Assembly: GCF_020085105.1 (NCBI RefSeq)
Contig: NC_058058.1
Coordinates: 6,502,175 to 6,566,174, forward strand
Direction: 5' to 3'
DNA: 64,000 nt
DNA from: Siniperca chuatsi
Taxonomy: Eukaryota > Chordata > Actinopteri > Centrarchiformes > Sinipercidae
The first letter of the stretch is position 1, and every line of letters starts with the position of its first letter. Under the pieces are notes generated by a model. The model saw only the letters and a list, made by a program, of their open reading frames with translations. It did not search any database and was not told the origin of the DNA. The position numbers and the translations under genes are program-made. Shown piece by piece: positions 237 to 57,860 of the stretch.

Positions 237-3200
237 CTTTGCAGTGTTGGGCTCATCTTTCACGCTTGCTGTAGATGTCGAGGATATTAGAGCTTGTTCG
301 TACTCTTCATCTACGGGCTCATCCTTCACCTTGACCAAAGGTGGTGAAGGAGATGACTTGATTGGCTGAGTGGCATGTAACCTCTCCTACAACAGGGAAA
401 AAAAGGGGGGGGGGGATTGTTGTTTGGACTTCCACGACCATAATTGGTGTAGATTTTGATGTAGATTTCAACTTCTGTGGTAACATCCAAACAAATAGCT
501 TTCTCTGCGCTAACAGTGTGACATAAAATCCAAAACATTACAGCCCTAAAGAACATTAAAGCTAGAAATATTTGAGAGAAGCACAGAAATGTACAAAAAC
601 TAAGGCAGATTTTCTTTCTTCTACTTACATTGGCTGATAGCTTAACTACTTTCATCCCGTTCATTATGGTCGCTGGTGATGAGCTGTCCCTTCCTACAGG
701 AAAATGAGCAACACGGAATTGGTTAACTGTGAATACGGGTGCAAAGTAAGTAATAAAGAAACTAAATACATGCAGAAAACAAATCATCCATTGCGACAGT
801 GATTTACAAATAACCAGATGAAATCTTATGGTCTGTGACTGGCCAGCCAGAAATGTAACCAAAACCAGAGAGTTTAAGACATTTACTTTTAATTGTAGGA
901 TGTGAGGAAGAATTAAGCTTAAGATGCTTCAGAATTTCCCGTTCTAATTTCTAGTGTCCTGGATTGGATAATACTCCAGCAGTACATATCTCAGCATTTA
1001 ATGGTGAGATGTGCACTAGCCAATAGCTCCAAAATCAGGTTGGTTTGTCTCTTATCAGTGGGTTGAGAATTTCATATCTTTAATCACACACTGGTGTTTC
1101 TTGTAAAACACCCCAAGCACATCGCTCTGAAGTCACTCACCTGTACTGGCCGTGACTGTAGACGATGGAGACGAGCTGGACTGCATCGAGTCTATAGCCA
1201 CTTTCACGTCCTCCACTTGGTCCTCCTCTGCAGGTGGTGGTAACACAGTGGGTTTCACATCAGTTTCCTCCTTAACAGAGTTACTGTCCTCTGTCGCTGA
1301 GGATGTGAGGGAAATTTTAAATACAAATTAATGGGATGCTATACAGCAGTAGCTTCCAAGTGCAGAAAATCAGAATCAGCAATACTTTATTCCCCGAGGG
1401 GAAACTCTTTTGTTTGCTGCACACTATCACGTCAATGCACACAGGGATAGAAGTACTAAGCAAATCAAAATATAATACACTATAATACAGGTAAGATAAA
1501 TTAAGTACAAAGTGGATATAAGTATAAAATTAAAATAAGTGTAAAGTACATAGTGGATTTACCGGCTGATGATAAGTATGTACGGTATAATAATACAATG
1601 TAATAATGTCTTTTAACTGGAAAAGCAGGATGAAGAGCTTCTGGCCTGCTGAACTGTCTTTGAACAATATCCTAGGTCTGTATTTCTGTAGCTCACATCG
1701 TAAACTGACAGCTCTGTGAATTTGGCAGAATGAATAGTTTCCAAAGAGAGGACATGGGTTACCACTTATAGGCTGTATTAAACAAAGATTCTCATCATTT
1801 AAACGGCTGCAGAAAGCGCTCTATGTCTGTGCAGCCACGAGCACACGAGTCAAAGTTTGAATACTGCCATCGGTTCGATCCCCACCACCTCCTGTTCACA
1901 TGTCAAAGTGTCCTTGGGCAAGACAATGAACACCAAATTGCTCCAGATGGTCAGGCCAGCAAACCTTGTACAGCAATTTGAATAAAAGTGTTATATAAAT
2001 GTAGCCATTTGCCATTTTAAGTGCCAGAAGGCAAAATAAGTTCAATGAAAATGTTTCAAGGGCAGGAAGAATACATATCTGCAGCACTTTCCCTGGAAAA
2101 AACAAAAATAATGGGACCAATGTGTAATGATAATGTAAGAGATTGTATAGGAATATATTACCTGCAACACAGCCAACTGTGCTGCATAACTAATAAGCTA
2201 AATATGTCACAGTTGGCTTTTTAAGAGTTGGTGAATGCACTTGGAAATAGCCCCTTCAGACATGCACCGTCCTTGGTAAACGTAATGGCAATTTTATGTG
2301 TCGCTGTCATGTCTGAATGAACGCCTGCGTCACTTGAGTGCCACCAGTAGCAGTTAAAGTAAGCACAAATTAAGTACAGCTGCACATTGAACACACACAA
2401 AGAGAAATTAAATGCACTTCTTGTTCCGCCTTCTTAAGAGCAACGTAATAAAATGACCAATTATAATCTGTCGTGCAATGAATGAATGAGTTTTAAGTTG
2501 TTCCCCTCACAGTGTGGGGAAAAAGAGCCTGTACCTTAACAGAAAGATGAAGCCAGCAGTGTTTCAAAAGGGCTAATGATGTATGACTCATTAAAAGAGC
2601 AGCTCTGTAAACAATGTGATATACAGCCATGCTTTTAAACTGTTCACTACAATCAACTGTTGTGATTTTTTTGACTCCAAAAGCTCCTTTTTACAGCTGC
2701 ATGAATGTGAAGCTGGGCGGTGCTGAGAAATGGGGGCATGCACAGCAAAACTCCCAAGAAAATGTTTCCCTGATAATGATAATATGTGAAGCAAGGGCAA
2801 TTAATAATTCATTAGTAATTACATGTCTACTTTGTCACCTTATGCTCCACAATTTCCAAAAACATCCTCTTTTCCTACAAGAACAACACAAGTTTTGCTT
2901 TTCATTAATTAACTTTCGTTGGTTTAAAATGTTTCTCTGCATCATCAACACAAAAATTTTGTGATAAACTCTTTGAGAAGCAAAATTTCTGCTTTACTTT
3001 ACCTGTATTTGAAATGTCAGGTGAGCGACTGCTATCCACATCCATCAAACTATTCTGTTCTTCCTCTTTCATCTGAGCTTCCTGTTCCACCTGATCCACT
3101 GTCCCAATGTCCATCATCTCATCGAGGTCGTCCGCTGTAGAAACACTCAATTTACAACCAAGAGACTCCTTTTCCTGCTGCGTGCCGATGTTCGGGTCCA

Positions 3201-7949: not shown

Positions 7950-8218
7950 TAACTTAACTTAACAGTTCCCTATTACTATGCACTATTACCTTATACCGCA
8001 TTATTATCATCAACTGGTAAACCCACTTAGTACTTCACACTTATTTTATTTTATACTTATACCCACTTGGTACTCTATTTATTTTCTGACCTGTATTATA
8101 GTGTATTATATTTTTTGCTTAGTACTTCTCTTCCTGTGTGCACTGACGTGAGCTGCTGTAGCAAAAGAGTTTCTCCTCAGGGATCAATAAAGTATTTCTG
8201 ATTCTGATTCTGATACAC
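7950..8218 (+). repeat. LINE 3' tail, plus orientation
   Basis: AT-rich 3' UTR-like text ends in 'aataaagtatttctgattct' with further gattct units. The last 110 bp match 57735-57857 closely, and the same block is inverted at 1369-1600. It is likely a 5'-truncated non-LTR element. Confidence 0.65.
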
Positions 8219-8747: not shown

Positions 8748-9283
8748 TACACTATATGGCCAAAAGTATGTGGACACCCAAACAGTACACACATGTGTGA
8801 GTGTTGAACATTTCATTCCAAAACCACAGGCTTTAACTTGTGTTGCTATAACGGCCTCCACTCCTCTGGGAAGGTTTTCCACCAGATGTTGGAAGGGATT
8901 TGCTCCCATTCAGACACAAGAGCATTAGTGAGGTCCAACACTGATGTTTGGTGATCAGGTCTGGCTCGCAGTTCCAGTTCATCCCAAAGGTGTTGGATGG
9001 GGTTGAGTTCAGGGCTCTCAGTAGAGTTCTTCCACACCAAAATGGATCTGGCTTTGTGCGCGGGGGCATTATCACGTTGAAGCAGGGAAGGGTCTTCCCC
9101 AAACTGCTGCCACAAAGCTGGAGACACGCTATTGTCTAAAATATCATCGTTTGCTGCAGCAGTAAGATTTCCCTTAATTTGAACGAAGGAATCTAGCCCA
9201 TATCATAAAAAACACAGCCCCAGACCCAAAATACACAAAATGTATGTGGACAGGGCTGTCCATATACTTTTGGCCGTATAGTA
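8748..9283 (-). mobile_element. Tc1/mariner-type remnant with internal deletion
   Basis: Terminal inverted repeats begin CACTATATGGCCAAAAGTAT on the left and CTATACGGCCAAAAGTATAT (reverse-complemented) on the right, each next to TA, the Tc1 target duplication. On the minus strand, 8846-9127 encodes the C-terminal part of a Tc1 transposase: the DNAPAHKA and SPELNPIQHLWDELE-like motifs, the latter carrying the last catalytic acidic residues, then a TNAL..EW tail. The N-terminal helix-turn-helix and first catalytic Asp are missing and the frame is broken. At about 530 bp against about 1.6 kb for full elements, it is non-autonomous. It ends 17 bp from the stop codon of the gene to its right. Confidence 0.85.
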
Positions 9284-35800: not shown

Positions 35801-36616
35801 TCAAACTGAATGAGCTAGCGTTAGCTAACAATGGCTGTCGACGCCATTCGCAGCAGAAAATGGTATACCAAGAATAATATAGACCTTTGGATGGCTCCCG
35901 TCTGACTCGGCTGCAGCGCTGTTTGTGGCCCTATTCTCCGGAACCTCCCGGTTCATCATCGGTGGCCCTGTCCTCTGGCCTTGTGGCTTCGGGCCTTGCT
36001 GTGGACCTGGCTTCGGGCCTTGCTGTGGACCTGGCTGTGGACCTGGCTGTGGACCTGGCTTCGGGCCTTGCTGTGGACTTGGCTTCGGGCCTTGCTGTGG
36101 ACCTGGCTTCGGGCTCGGGTGTGGAGGCTGCTTCTGTTGCTGTCCGTTAGCATTTCCCACCGGTGACTTCAGCTGCTGGTTCTGGTTCTGGTTTTTGTTT
36201 GCCTGGTTAGGCTGAGGGGAGGTCATGTTAGGTTTCGGCGGGGGTGACTGAATCTTCGGCGGAGGCGTAGGGGTTGTCGGTGTCCGCTGCTGCTCCTGCT
36301 TTTGCTGTGCCGGTGGTTGCTGCTGCTGCATCGGGCCTTTCATTGTGAGAGCCGGGCCGGGACTCGGCGGAGGGATGATTGGCAGCGACTGGTTCTGTTG
36401 TGGCTTCTGGGGAGTCAATTGTGGGCCCTGATTCGGCGGTCTGTTGAAGTTATTATTTGGTCCCCTCCGATTTTGGTTCTGATTTTGGAAAGGATGGCTC
36501 CTGAAATTTGGGTTTCCCATTAGCCCACCTCGCATTGGGCCGCCGGGCCCACTGCCTCTGCGTTGCTGGAAATTATTCATCCCAACGCCGCCGCGATTAC
36601 TGTTAAATCGAGACAT
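29822..36616 (-). CDS. sfpq: Splicing factor, proline- and glutamine-rich (SFPQ/PSF)
   Basis: Ten coding exons join in phase: 35885-36616, 35037-35225, 34618-34919, 34376-34471, 33600-33796, 33358-33442, 32999-33110, 32840-32888, 32280-32380 and 29822-29932. They encode 657 residues against about 707 in human. Residues 1-244 (exon 1) are an RGG-, Pro-, Gln- and Asn-rich disordered region with PGPQ/GPKP repeats. RRM1 starts at CRLFIGNLP (265) with RNP1 [11 protein letters not shown]2 starts near ALSVKNLS (341) with [12 protein letters not shown] segment with [17 protein letters not shown] follows, then a long charged coiled coil (about 470-560), and the C-terminus ends KKPRF. SFPQ is a nuclear DBHS-family RNA- and DNA-binding protein of paraspeckles, acting in splicing and transcription as dimers with NONO and PSPC1. 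Intron 5 uses a GC donor. The last intron is 2.35 kb, the longest in the gene. Confidence 0.97.
29933..32279 (-). other. sfpq: sfpq last intron (intron 9), 2.35 kb
   Basis: All other introns in this gene are between about 110 and 660 bp; this one is 2,347 bp and free of obvious transposons. In mammals the equivalent long intron of SFPQ is known to be conserved and retained in some neural transcripts. The donor here is ATG|GTAACG, which is weaker than the GTAAGT consensus. Retention would add a new C-terminus in place of the RNERF...KKPRF exon. Confidence 0.6.
32560..32745. repeat. MITE fragment in sfpq intron 8
   Basis: 'ctgccagtttattaggtccc' then 'tagctgaaactaatgcagtc' and 'ggttgtagtttgtggtgctg' match the element at 62212-62440 and the termini of the one at 4085-4512. 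Only part is present. Confidence 0.6.
35990..36125 (-). repeat. In-frame minisatellite in sfpq exon 1
   Basis: Tandem units of 12 to 24 bp, about ctggcttcgggccttgctgtgga on the plus strand in shorter and longer forms, encode PGPQQGPKP and PGPQ repeats. Unit lengths are multiples of three, so copy-number changes keep the frame. The tract is likely to vary between individuals and species. Confidence 0.75.
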
Positions 36617-36859
36617 TAATCCTTATATCAGCGAAAACTTAAAATACTTAAAACGTTATTAATTTGCTGCGTAACAGCCGTCTCCTACCGATATTTGCAG
36701 GTCAAACTCCTCAAAATGGCGACTAACGGTTGCGCATAGAGGGGTCTTTCTTTCTCCAGCACAGTGAGAACCGCCCCGCTACGCTCATTGGTCCGCTGCT
36801 CAGCAGGAGGCGTCACCAGGAAGTTCAGAATCTTTTGAAACAAACAATTCGTTGGACTT
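36617..36859 (-). promoter_or_regulatory. sfpq: sfpq promoter and 5' UTR
   Basis: This lies directly upstream of the ATG at 36616. A CCAAT box in sense orientation (36786-36790) and a YY1-like AAAATGGCGAC core (36713-36723) are present; no TATA box is apparent. The region is cut off at 36860 by a LINE insertion, so the native upstream sequence resumes at 38028. Confidence 0.55.
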
Positions 36860-37876
36860 CTTATTAAATGTGACTTTGAGCTATCCAAATTACCCATTAA
36901 GTTGTCTAAGTTTCATGGACAAGTTCTCCAGTACTGGAAATTAATTTATAATCATAATTTTTCGCCCCATGATACACCTTTATGGAATAACAGGTATATA
37001 CTGATTAGAAAAAAATCCTTCTTTTACAAACACTGGGCTGAACAGGGTGTAATGCTGGTTTTACATTTACTGGATGACAGGGGTAATTTACTTAACTATT
37101 CAGACTTCATTCACAAATATAATATTATTTGTTCTAATCAACAATTTACACAAGTCACCAATGCGATTCCACAAGCTATTATTGGTTCTGTCAAAGGTTT
37201 CTTGATGTACACGCACTCTGTTCCCCAACTGTTTCCCTTAACTATTCAAAACATTTCCTTTTTAGACAAAAAATGTAACAAGTTCTTAAGATCAGTTTTA
37301 TCCAATGTATGTTTTTCCTTGCCTTTAAGAAGACGAAATATTATGAAAGGTTTCACCAGTCAAAATATAAAAAAGTTCAGATGTAACTATTTAAAATTTC
37401 CTGTCCCACCCAAAGCTAAAGAGGTACGTTTCAAATTGTTAAATAATGTTTATCCATGCAAAGAATTTTTACATTCAAAATTTAATATTGAAGACAATGT
37501 TTGTACTTTTTGTTTAGCTAACATTGAAACAGATGAGCATCTCTTTTTCTCGTGTGTTTATTCAAAGATATTTTGGGATAGTTTCTGTATTTGGGTTTAT
37601 CAAAACAACTTAGGTGTCCGTTCTTTCAATTACAATGATGTTAAATTTGGCGTTATACTGGAGGACAAATCAAAAGATTTAACAATTAATAGTATGATTG
37701 TTATGGCAATTTTTTTCATTCACAAATGTAAATTTGGCAATATTAAGCCTTTATTTAATGTTTTTATTCATGATATGTCATCTTTAAAAGAGTCTTTGAA
37801 TGTCTGTAAATCTAGGAATGCACTTTGGCTATGTAATAATCTGGAAGCTCTTTCTTTGAACCCTGTAACTCTGTAA
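36860..37876 (+). CDS. C-terminal part of LINE ORF2 (truncated, open from the insertion edge)
   Basis: The frame is open from the first base after the target duplication (LIKCDFELSKLPIKL, then SKFHGQVLQYWKLIYNHNFS) to a stop at 37876. The internal KAKEVRFKLLNN stretch and the Cys/His motif CTFC...DEHLFFSC (Cx2C, then Hx4C) are the zinc-binding C-terminal region found after the reverse transcriptase in L1/Tx1-clade ORF2 proteins. Endonuclease and reverse transcriptase domains are absent because of 5' truncation, so it cannot move by itself. There is no native start codon; the 339 codons are a remnant, not a host gene. Confidence 0.85.
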   Translation, partial: LIKCDFELSKLPIKLSKFHGQVLQYWKLIYNHNFSPHDTPLWNNRYILIRKKSFFYKHWAEQGVMLVLHLLDDRGNLLNYSDFIHKYNIICSNQQFTQVTNAIPQAIIGSVKGFLMYTHSVPQLFPLTIQNISFLDKKCNKFLRSVLSNVCFSLPLRRRNIMKGFTSQNIKKFRCNYLKFPVPPKAKEVRFKLLNNVYPCKEFLHSKFNIEDNVCTFCLANIETDEHLFFSCVYSKIFWDSFCIWVYQNNLGVRSFNYNDVKFGVILEDKSKDLTINSMIVMAIFFIHKCKFGNIKPLFNVFIHDMSSLKESLNVCKSRNALWLCNNLEALSLNPVTL

Positions 37877-38013
37877 TTATGGCTTTCTTTGTTCTTGGTT
37901 TTCATTTTTGTTCAATTGTTTGACCTGCTCTTCTTGAAATATTGAATGTTTAATAAGCCTGTATGGTTTTTGAAATAAATATTAATAAAAAAATAAAAAA
38001 ATAAATTAAAAAA
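36860..38013 (+). mobile_element. 5'-truncated L1/Tx1-type LINE with target-site duplication
   Basis: The 14-bp sequence aattcgttggactt occurs at 36846-36859 and again, exact, at 38014-38027. Between them is a plus-strand LINE 3' end with AATAAA at 37974-37979 and an impure A-rich tail. Exact duplication and an undamaged reading frame indicate a young insertion. It is transcriptionally divergent from sfpq. Confidence 0.93.
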
Positions 38014-39142
38014 AATTCGTTGGACTTTGTAATTCAGCTCTCATTTGGGTCTTAATTCAGGTATTTAGGAAAATGTAATGCTGGAGTGTACAAACATTCC
38101 TGATGTAAAAACCCTTTAATAGCATCACAAAACACTACTAATTGAAATGTAGTGTTGGTTACAGTTTTAGTCCCTGTATTAAAAGATCTGTGACTTATAT
38201 TGGGTTACAGTCTTGTATTTTGAATTTTGCTGTTGGGGATACCCTTGTGTTGATATTTGGATTACTCATTTTTGCCTATTCCAGAGCAGTAATTCATCTA
38301 GATGCAGCAATTTAGAAGAAAGTACTCCTAGTGATGCACATTTGCATGGAACACTGTTTGTGCAGATGGCCCGTCGCATGTTAACAGAAAGCAAAATACA
38401 GCAAGAATTTTCCATCTCCTTCTCCTTGCTGTTGTGAAAACTGTCAACTTTGCAAAGCGCACAAAAAAAAATCTAGGGCCTGCCCTGCAGTAAAGACAAT
38501 ACACACACTAACGTAAGAATAAAGACAGTAAAACAAAATGGACCATTCACTGAAAAAACTTTGTCTTATCAAGCTTAAAGGGAGAAGGGGGGGAAATCTT
38601 GTAAAAATACAAGTTTAAGAATGTGCAATTAGGACCTTTAGAAAGGGTGTTATTTAATTGCCATTATTAGATTTTATTTGAGTAAAAAATTAATGCAGTT
38701 CTTTGGACTCAAGTCACAAATTTGAAGTCAAAATTTAAAAGGACTGGCAAGAATGACTCGTGAGCCCTTTGACTTGAAAAATCTGATACTCTACTACAGG
38801 CATGGAATAAATTTGAAAGTAATTAGCACACATTTAGTTGTATTTTCCTGATTCACAAAATGTGTTCACTGTTAGTCTTTTGGTGTTTACATGTTGAAGA
38901 ACAGATGACTTGTTTTGGATGCTAAACTTAAAATTTAGGACTTGATGCCATGAAGGTTTGTTAAAGCATTGATTACACCTTGTTCCATTAGAGGACACTT
39001 GTGGTGTTTGCTTAATTATAGATTTTATAAATGTTTGAATTTTTATTTTCCTCATACCTATCTTTTTTTAGTTAATTCATTTTCTGATATTTATCCAGCT
39101 ATGGAAAATAAAAGACGCTCAACTCGGACTTTTTTTTTGTCA

Positions 39143-39148
39143 TTTATT
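39143..39148 (-). terminator. lypla2: Candidate distal polyadenylation signal for lypla2
   Basis: AATAAA on the minus strand followed by ACAAAAAAAAA. It would imply a 2.6 kb 3' UTR. The nearer signals at 40435-40445 may be used instead. Confidence 0.3.
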
Positions 39149-39178
39149 CCGCATACAGGTGTTTTGGAAACAAAAAAA

Positions 39179-39201
39179 AGCGGAGACCACCAGTCTCCGC
39201 T
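39179..39201 (-). other. Perfect 9-bp hairpin followed by T8 on the minus strand
   Basis: agcggagac pairs with gtctccgct around a 5-nt loop. On the minus strand it is followed at once by eight T. This has the shape of an intrinsic terminator, but in a vertebrate it is more likely an RNA stem in the lypla2 3' UTR or chance. It lies about 30 bp upstream of the distal AATAAA. Confidence 0.55.
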
Positions 39202-41761
39202 CAACATGTTTTCTTAACGCTTATCATTATAAACAGACACAAAAAAAGGATGAGATGACAACGGTGACAAAACACAACAAAACATAAGTCCAATAAACAA
39301 AAAACACGTATGTAGAAAGTTTAACCAATAACAACATACAACCCAGGAGAAAACACACAAGACGGTGTGACATCGTCACACAGGGGGGAAATGTTGGAAT
39401 AATTAAAAAACACGGTGAAGAGAAGAAGAGAAGAAATAAACTAAATTAAGGAAGCAAACACAACGCAGGGCTGCATCAGAGATTCAAAGTGACGGGAAAA
39501 TACAAAAGGACACAAGGAGATAAGAATGACATTCATTGATTAGTGAACAACAATCCAAACAGATGTCTTTCCTCCTTTTCCACTTTTTGTTTTTTAAAAA
39601 TCAGGTTTGAGAACAGTAATATAGAGCAGGTAATCATGAGGAGAGCAAAATTAACATTCACAAAGGAAAATGCAGAACACCTGATATATATATATTTTAA
39701 GCACACACGACTCCTCAGAGTTACACTCCAATGTCCAAGGATCACAAGTTGTTCAAGATTAACTTTTTTTTAAATCTGTAAAATCACCATTCAGTTATGT
39801 TGGAACAGCTTCTTGCCAAAGCCCTCCCAATGTATAGCCATTTTTTTCTAAAGAAGTGAACTATAATAGTGTTGGGTTTAAGTTTAAATCTGACCTTTTA
39901 TGTTCTATTAGTGGGTTACAGTAAGTTGCCAAAGGAGGGAGCTGGGAAGTGAATATTTTCTTACACTTTGTTGGGAATAAATGGTCTAAGCCAGTTTTAA
40001 ACTCAGGTCTGCTTTGGTGTCGTGGAAAAAGATATGGAGGAAGCAGGTGTTTCCAGAGTTTAAAACACACAAAACCACTGAAAATCAACTCGGACAAATG
40101 GAGAGGAGGCTGTTCATGGGGCGTCTGTCGCTGAAACAGGAACACTTGAATGGGGAAAATGTTTAAAGAGGAAACGGTGGTGGGAGGAACAGTGAAACGA
40201 CTCGTGGCGTGCAGTCTGTGCGGGCCTGCAACCATCTGAAGTGAGGCATTATTTCATGCAAATCACACAGTCAGTTATTCCCCTTTAAGCCTCCAATCTC
40301 ATTTTAAAAAAGGAAATAAACGGAGGTAATTTTACATAAAGAAACATAATCAAAGCAGAAAGAGATTGCTGACATGCAGGTGTGGAAGTTTTGAAATAAA
40401 CAGCACAGGTTGGCAAAAGCATCGATTGATTAGTTTTATTTTATTTCAATTGGATTTTCCTTATATAATTCAAGATATTTTATCACACTCATTAAAAAAA
40501 GAAAGAAATGTGAGGCTCCCATGGATGTTGGTATTTTAATAAAAAGGGGCATCCATAGGTAAGTGGTCGAGATTAGCGATGTAAGACCCGGACAGGCTGC
40601 AGTGCACTGTCATGGGGTGGTAGGCTGTGGGATGGATGGGTTGGTGGGAAACCAGCTGCTCCAGCTCTAAAGCCAGCACTCACTGCTCCTGAGTCAGACT
40701 CTGTAGGACTCCAACACTGGAGTGAAGCCGCAGTCGGAGCAAATTTCAACGGGCAAAATTTACTCGTGTGGTGCAGCAAAAAAGCATGAGGGGACAGGAA
40801 ATAGCTTGGGCAGGGTTGTAAACATAAACTGCAAGAGCTAGCATGGCTAGCGGGCTAACAACAGCAGTCCACAAAGCTGTAAATTATACAACGTTTTATC
40901 AAATCATATTTTACTGTCAGTAACCTCTGCCACTCTCCTTGTACTCACTGCAGCCAAGCAGCATCCCTTCTTCTCTGCTACTTGTATTATTTCACTGTGC
41001 AGTTATTAAGCAAGACTATAAACAACCAATATTTCCTGAATGAGAAGTCAATCCCACCTTTTCTCTCAAACTGGCTGGACATTGGAGAGCCTCAAGATTT
41101 CACATGTCAAAGCTCAGTCAGATTCAGATTTAACTCAGGTAGGTCAATTCGCGACAAAAAGCAAACGTGTCTCGCCCCGTTCCACATAGAAAAGAATGGG
41201 AAGCGAAATCCAGTCTGACTGATACTAAGGCGCTAGTATGGTCACTGACAGCATCAGGTAGGTGTTCACCTGCTTATCCGACTCCATCTTAATGATGGTT
41301 TTCCACTAAATGTCTTACAAACTGACACATCAATGAAAATGGGAAAGGTGTGGCAGTTGACGCAATGGAGGATGTGATAGCTGAAAAAAAAGGTTAAGAT
41401 GAAGCAAAATGAGGTAAAAGTGGAGAAAAACTGAGGTTGTTTAAATAAAACCAAAGGGAATGTATTGTGTGAGTCATTATTTCTCCCTCCGAAAGGCTAA
41501 GACTTGTGAGTGTGAGCACTTGGTTATGTTATTATCAAATTAGTTTGTTGTTGGATTTCACTGCATGGAGAAGCATATGTTTTGTTTAGCAGTGTGGATC
41601 AAATCATTATTTTCAAATGTGCGTGTGTTTTCATGTGTGTGTTTGTTATTTTGTCGATGTGTGTGGACGAGGGGGTGCTCATGGCTGTTTCCTGTGGGAG
41701 AATGGCAGATCAGGGGTGAGAGGTCAGTGTCTCAGGGGGTCATAGTGGGGATGAGGTGAGG

Positions 41762-50101
<8,340 letters not shown>

Positions 50102-57639: not shown

Positions 57640-57860
57640 GTGTGCTCTAATATATCATCCATTTATAAATCCTGCCCACTGTATATACTGTATATCTATT
57701 TATGTACATGCATATATTATATACTAAATACATATTATATTTTTTGCTTAGTACTTCTCTTCCTGTGTGCACTGACGTGATAGTGAGCTGCTGTAGCAAA
57801 AGAGTTTCCCCTCAGGGATCAATAAAGTATTTCTGTTTCTGATTCTGATTCTGATGCTGT
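57640..57860 (+). repeat. LINE 3' tail, plus orientation
   Basis: Ends 'aataaagtatttctgtttct' plus gattct units; nearly identical over 110 bp to 8100-8215. Confidence 0.65.

Follow-up and report, generated by a model that had tools for sequence, protein, structure and literature searches.

In zebrafish, 82 families of the L1 clade have been described, which comprise the Swimmer and the Tx1-a, -b and -c branches and of which many are very young; the same comparison of four teleosts counts six L1-clade families in medaka, three in stickleback and two in tetraodon (excerpted text of PMC4746887). A second comparison covers several fishes and their L1 and Tx1 elements (PMC7140322, likewise in excerpt). 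In the lizard Anolis, polymorphic LINE insertions are numerous and mostly of low frequency, according to the excerpted text of PMC5389967. A literature search combining zf-RVT, LINE and fish returned, among the matches listed, no title on fish LINEs.

Here, we analysed a window (the whole stretch of DNA of 64,000 nucleotides, located on contig C17) in which the 3' end of a LINE lies immediately upstream of sfpq. The insertion event is real, cleanly marked and ordinary in kind. Very probably, the insert is a dead copy, truncated at its 5' end, of an L1/Tx1-type LINE that is present in few copies and was recently active; the insert would have entered by target-primed reverse transcription roughly 0.2–3.4 million years ago and would have little or no effect on sfpq.

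The insert and its target-site duplication

The insert covers 1,154 bp (36860–38013) on the plus strand and comprises the C-terminal part of ORF2, the 3' UTR and an A-rich tail (37974–38013) bearing AATAAA at positions 37974, 37984, 37992 and 38000. Its description as a LINE 3' end in the initial annotation is borne out by a zf-RVT match and by dispersed relatives in the genome. The CpG observed/expected ratio of the insert is 0.32, and an Rfam scan of the window gave nothing at the gathering threshold.

As had been claimed, exact copies of AATTCGTTGGACTT flank the insert (36846–36859 and 38014–38027, both read on the plus strand). Across the host genome (718,788,923 bases in 65 contigs), this 14-mer has two exact sites in all, and both are the borders of the insert; the reversed pattern, used as a control, occurs three times. 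With one mismatch allowed, there are still two sites in the window, while 100 dinucleotide shuffles yielded a mean of 0.02 sites and in no case (0/100) two. The exactness of the copies therefore stands, but the full 14 bp are an upper limit for the duplication and 12 bp are certain, because its first two A's are indistinguishable from the A-rich tail. At the 5' junction, up to 2 bp are ambiguous, since a longer relative has the same two letters at this place as the TT that stand just before the insert. Read against the L1 endonuclease consensus, the nick site showed no clear agreement.

From the junction, the frame of the ORF2 remnant (36860–37876, plus strand) runs open to a stop codon at 37874–37876. 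This gives 338 codons inside the insert; the openness first noted is real, whereas the count of 339 would include the stop. In this frame, Pfam zf-RVT (PF13966) scored 32.1 bits against a cut-off of 27.5, at residues 176–242 of the stretch translated from 36851, so that the C-terminal zinc-binding motif expected of an L1/Tx1-type LINE is present. Counting the insert, 13 copies have at least 300 aligned codons, and seven of them are free of in-register stops (indels not counted). The open frame is a weak sign of youth, and it fits recent descent from coding elements because 6/12 of the other copies are equally free of stops.

Other elements were met in the same window. An ORF at 8846–9202 on the minus strand resembles, judged by motif, the end of a Tc1-type transposase. 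Two further stretches, 8104–8214 and 57733–57849, are near-identical (100% over 48 nt and 97% over 67 nt) and both end in a TTTCTGATTCTGAT-like tail; they may be 3' ends from a further LINE family. Near 1413–1534 there are diverged inverted pieces.

Relatives, mode of insertion and age

Used as a genome query, the insert gave at least 45 matches including itself, at 83–100% identity, where one copy is in some cases represented by several pieces; this is a lower bound, with 40 of 72 first-look candidates scored. A query of 300 bp from the 3' part gave at least 40 matches (40 of 65 candidates scored). That the genome should contain other, similar 3' ends had been set beforehand as a test of the annotation, and at least 44 matches besides the insert were found. 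Other copies start at different 5' points and sit in dispersed targets with differing duplications, and the relatives with complete 3' ends carry A-rich tails that differ in sequence.

Among the 29 other copies fetched, 11 extend further upstream than the first base of the insert and share the same letters there, several of them being alike across all of the 1.5 kb retrieved. The 1,500-bp upstream flank of the insert matched none of the flanks of these 29 copies at E 1e-10. Because relatives continue upstream and the insert's own flank is unshared, the insert represents a 3' end left by truncation, without the fixed 5' end of a defined unit. Exact duplications of 11–20 bp were found in 14 of the 18 other copies that were testable, the 11 upstream-continuing copies lying outside this test with its short windows. 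The other four (4/29) had no duplication of at least 11 bp, and three of these four matches also end before the 3' end. Counting the insert, duplications of 11–20 bp occur in 15/30 copies with a median of 14, so that the 14-bp duplication is typical of the family. A perfect duplication is a weak sign of youth; L024, a copy sharing 88% identity with the insert, keeps an exact one of 13 bp.

These observations are consistent with the following sequence of events. Starting at its A-rich tail, the LINE RNA would have been copied into DNA at a nick just upstream of the sfpq promoter, reverse transcription would have halted after about 1.15 kb, and repair would have produced the 12–14-bp duplication.

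Over the 1,109 alignment columns in which eight or more other copies are represented, the insert carries six private bases (0.54%, Poisson 95% range 0.20–1.18%), a count that incomplete sampling can inflate and that may include changes of the source lineage, in which case the insertion would be younger. It can also run too low, because L009 shows 0 private bases of 1,078 and yet has a terminal branch of 0.0163. By private bases, the insert ranks 11th lowest of 30 copies and is not the youngest-looking one. In a maximum-likelihood tree of 40 sequences from 39 copies (one entered as two pieces), its terminal branch of 0.0084 is the 8th shortest; the distinct places number 39, since L020/L060 and L021/L068 are pieces of one copy each. 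The nearest two of seven relatives compared directly differ from the insert by 1.3 and 1.5%. With neutral rates of 3.5e-9 to 1e-8 per site per year, a rough age would be about 0.2–3.4 million years by private bases and, equally rough, about 0.8–2.4 million years by the terminal branch. The insertion thus looks fairly young, and on both the private bases and the terminal branch its earlier description as recent holds in a relative sense.

The promoter side of sfpq and the weighing of alternatives

The frame with the N-terminal coding region of sfpq lies at 35825–36616 on the minus strand, with a presumed ATG at 36616–36614 that we picked by the SFPQ N-terminus. An RRM exon within 34614–34958 matches SFPQ entries best (E 1.3e-54), ahead of NONO (E 9.2e-48) and PSPC1 (E 2.1e-47), and its next best place in the genome is 74% identical, which identifies the gene beside the insert as sfpq. 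Within the N-terminal region, a repeat with a 12-bp period (35960–36151) encodes amino-acid repeats; short-period arrays often vary in copy number. Elsewhere in the genome, the stretch L070 (around G000:C5:12999442-12999759) encodes at its positions 796–2124, minus strand, a NONO-like protein in one uninterrupted frame of 442 codons, whose best PDB match is 9glc_BD (non-POU domain containing octamer binding, E 5.7e-178). The uninterrupted frame suggests an intronless nono gene or a retrogene. On C24, a related gene matches in two separate stretches.

The presumed ATG and the insert are 243 bp apart, and 229 bp of this distance lie between the ATG and the first copy of the duplication; the position immediately upstream of the gene is as annotated, and the distance given as about 245 bp becomes 243 bp. 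These 229 bp (36617–36845, on the minus strand) form a CpG-rich stretch with 13 CpG and an observed/expected ratio of 1.10, which would represent the 5' leader and core promoter. It contains a CCAAT box on the gene's strand (36787–36791) and a YY1-like motif (36713–36721). The stretch is intact with the insert at its outer edge, and 36560–36859 is single copy in the genome. A loss of the promoter core is not supported: CCAAT, YY1-like motif and CpG-rich stretch all remain on the gene side. As to the dosage sensitivity initially ascribed to the gene, homozygous sfpq mutants of zebrafish have been compared with a pool of wild-type and heterozygous siblings, and the excerpted main text of that study contains neither "dosage" nor "haploinsuf" (PMC5405110).

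The native DNA displaced by the insert is CpG-poor, with 0 CpG in 38028–38300, and includes an older degenerate repeat (38086–38303), parts of which match 10 other genome places at 68–80% identity. The nearest coding sequence identified upstream (about 42014–42187, minus strand) is lypla2-like, with better agreement to acyl-protein thioesterase 2 (E 2.5e-23) than to thioesterase 1 (E 2.1e-18). It shares the strand of sfpq, so that the two are arranged tail to head and not divergently. None of eight ORFs of at least 60 aa located in 38183–41215 reached a Pfam cut-off (UPA_2 stayed below it, E 0.0097), in a scan that covered ORFs of at least 60 aa, and within 39500–41762 those above 109 aa. A divergent promoter, suggested initially, found no support in this same-strand neighbour and these ORFs and was rejected. 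Nor does the fragment appear to have carried a promoter in: LINE promoters normally lie at the LINE 5' end, and this fragment lacks that end, its content being limited to the tail and the 3' portion of ORF2. A strong effect of the insert on sfpq is not expected from the sequence; little or no effect may be assumed, given the intact DNA on the promoter side and a fragment without a known promoter. The case for a regulatory role is weak, and nothing in the sequence speaks positively for it.

As polymorphic LINE insertions are many in Anolis (PMC5389967, in excerpt), a young insertion could still be segregating. If it also lowered or altered sfpq expression, by chromatin silencing that spreads from the LINE or by moving upstream elements away from the promoter, the fair youth of the insert, the mostly low frequency of the Anolis insertions and the place of the insert on the border of the CpG-rich stretch, 243 bp away from the presumed ATG, would all be in keeping with this. 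Set against it are the intact promoter-side DNA and the CpG-poor, partly old repetitive nature of the DNA beyond the insert, and we regard this scenario as improbable; that a recent, still segregating LINE fragment would alter sfpq expression between alleles seems more doubtful still. No empty allele was seen within the single assembly analysed: the 14-mer stands only at the insert borders, and the promoter side has one match and the far side one full-length match.

Two further explanations have hardly any probability. The 338 open codons could be taken for an adopted, translated gene, but the remnant starts in the middle of ORF2 without a start region of its own, stop-free frames are shared by half of the comparable copies as given above, and six private bases (three synonymous, three not) are not enough to reveal selection in one direction or the other. 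Arrival by segmental duplication or assembly error instead of retrotransposition is at odds with the A-rich tail and the exact short duplication, with 5' starts that differ among copies and an upstream flank common to 0/29 others, and with a promoter side that is single copy; as the copies bear duplications of their own, this candidate was discarded. Retrotransposition of a truncated LINE copy remains our preferred reading. It adds one well-marked case in which a LINE has been recently active in a fish genome, and the insert is a possible insertion marker. Wider importance would hang on polymorphism and on an expression effect on sfpq; if both were true, the locus would offer a cleanly marked natural test of the independence of a CpG-rich core promoter from its native upstream DNA.

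Placement among known LINEs

A longer relative on contig C8 (L037) contains a 291-aa upstream ORF, an endonuclease-bearing ORF and a 1,007-aa RT ORF. Matches above cut-off were obtained for the APE-type endonuclease (PF03372, Exo_endo_phos; 31.3 bits, cut-off 24.5), for the reverse transcriptase (PF00078, RVT_1; 126.4 bits, cut-off 29.6) and for zf-RVT, where endonuclease and RT sit, read as they stand, in two overlapping ORFs of different frames. The 291-aa ORF had no Pfam match above cut-off, its sole match being CCCAP below it. Against PDB, the RT of L037 matched the LINE-1 ORF2 protein at E 8.3e-66 and R2 at E 5.5e-18. The insert itself shows the A-rich tail, 5' truncation and short target-site duplication that are traits of L1/Tx1-type elements. 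Placed by domain content and PDB similarity, the insert fits a 5'-truncated copy of an L1/Tx1-type LINE.

With the site-specific LINEs of the R2 type, the family has the RT domain in common, but it differs from them in the Exo_endo_phos endonuclease of L037 and in its dispersed targets with differing duplications. LINE-1, represented by the ORF2 protein entries in PDB, is similar in the RT region and leaves the same type of insertion hallmarks. Human LINE-1, however, numbers hundreds of thousands of copies, far more than the matches counted here (at least 45). Likened by domains and PDB similarity and not by an RT tree of named elements, the family resembles the L1/Tx1-type LINEs of teleosts (Swimmer, Tx1-a, -b and -c; excerpted text of PMC4746887) in combining RT, zf-RVT and endonuclease, and also in its A-rich tail, 5' truncation, short duplications and recent activity.
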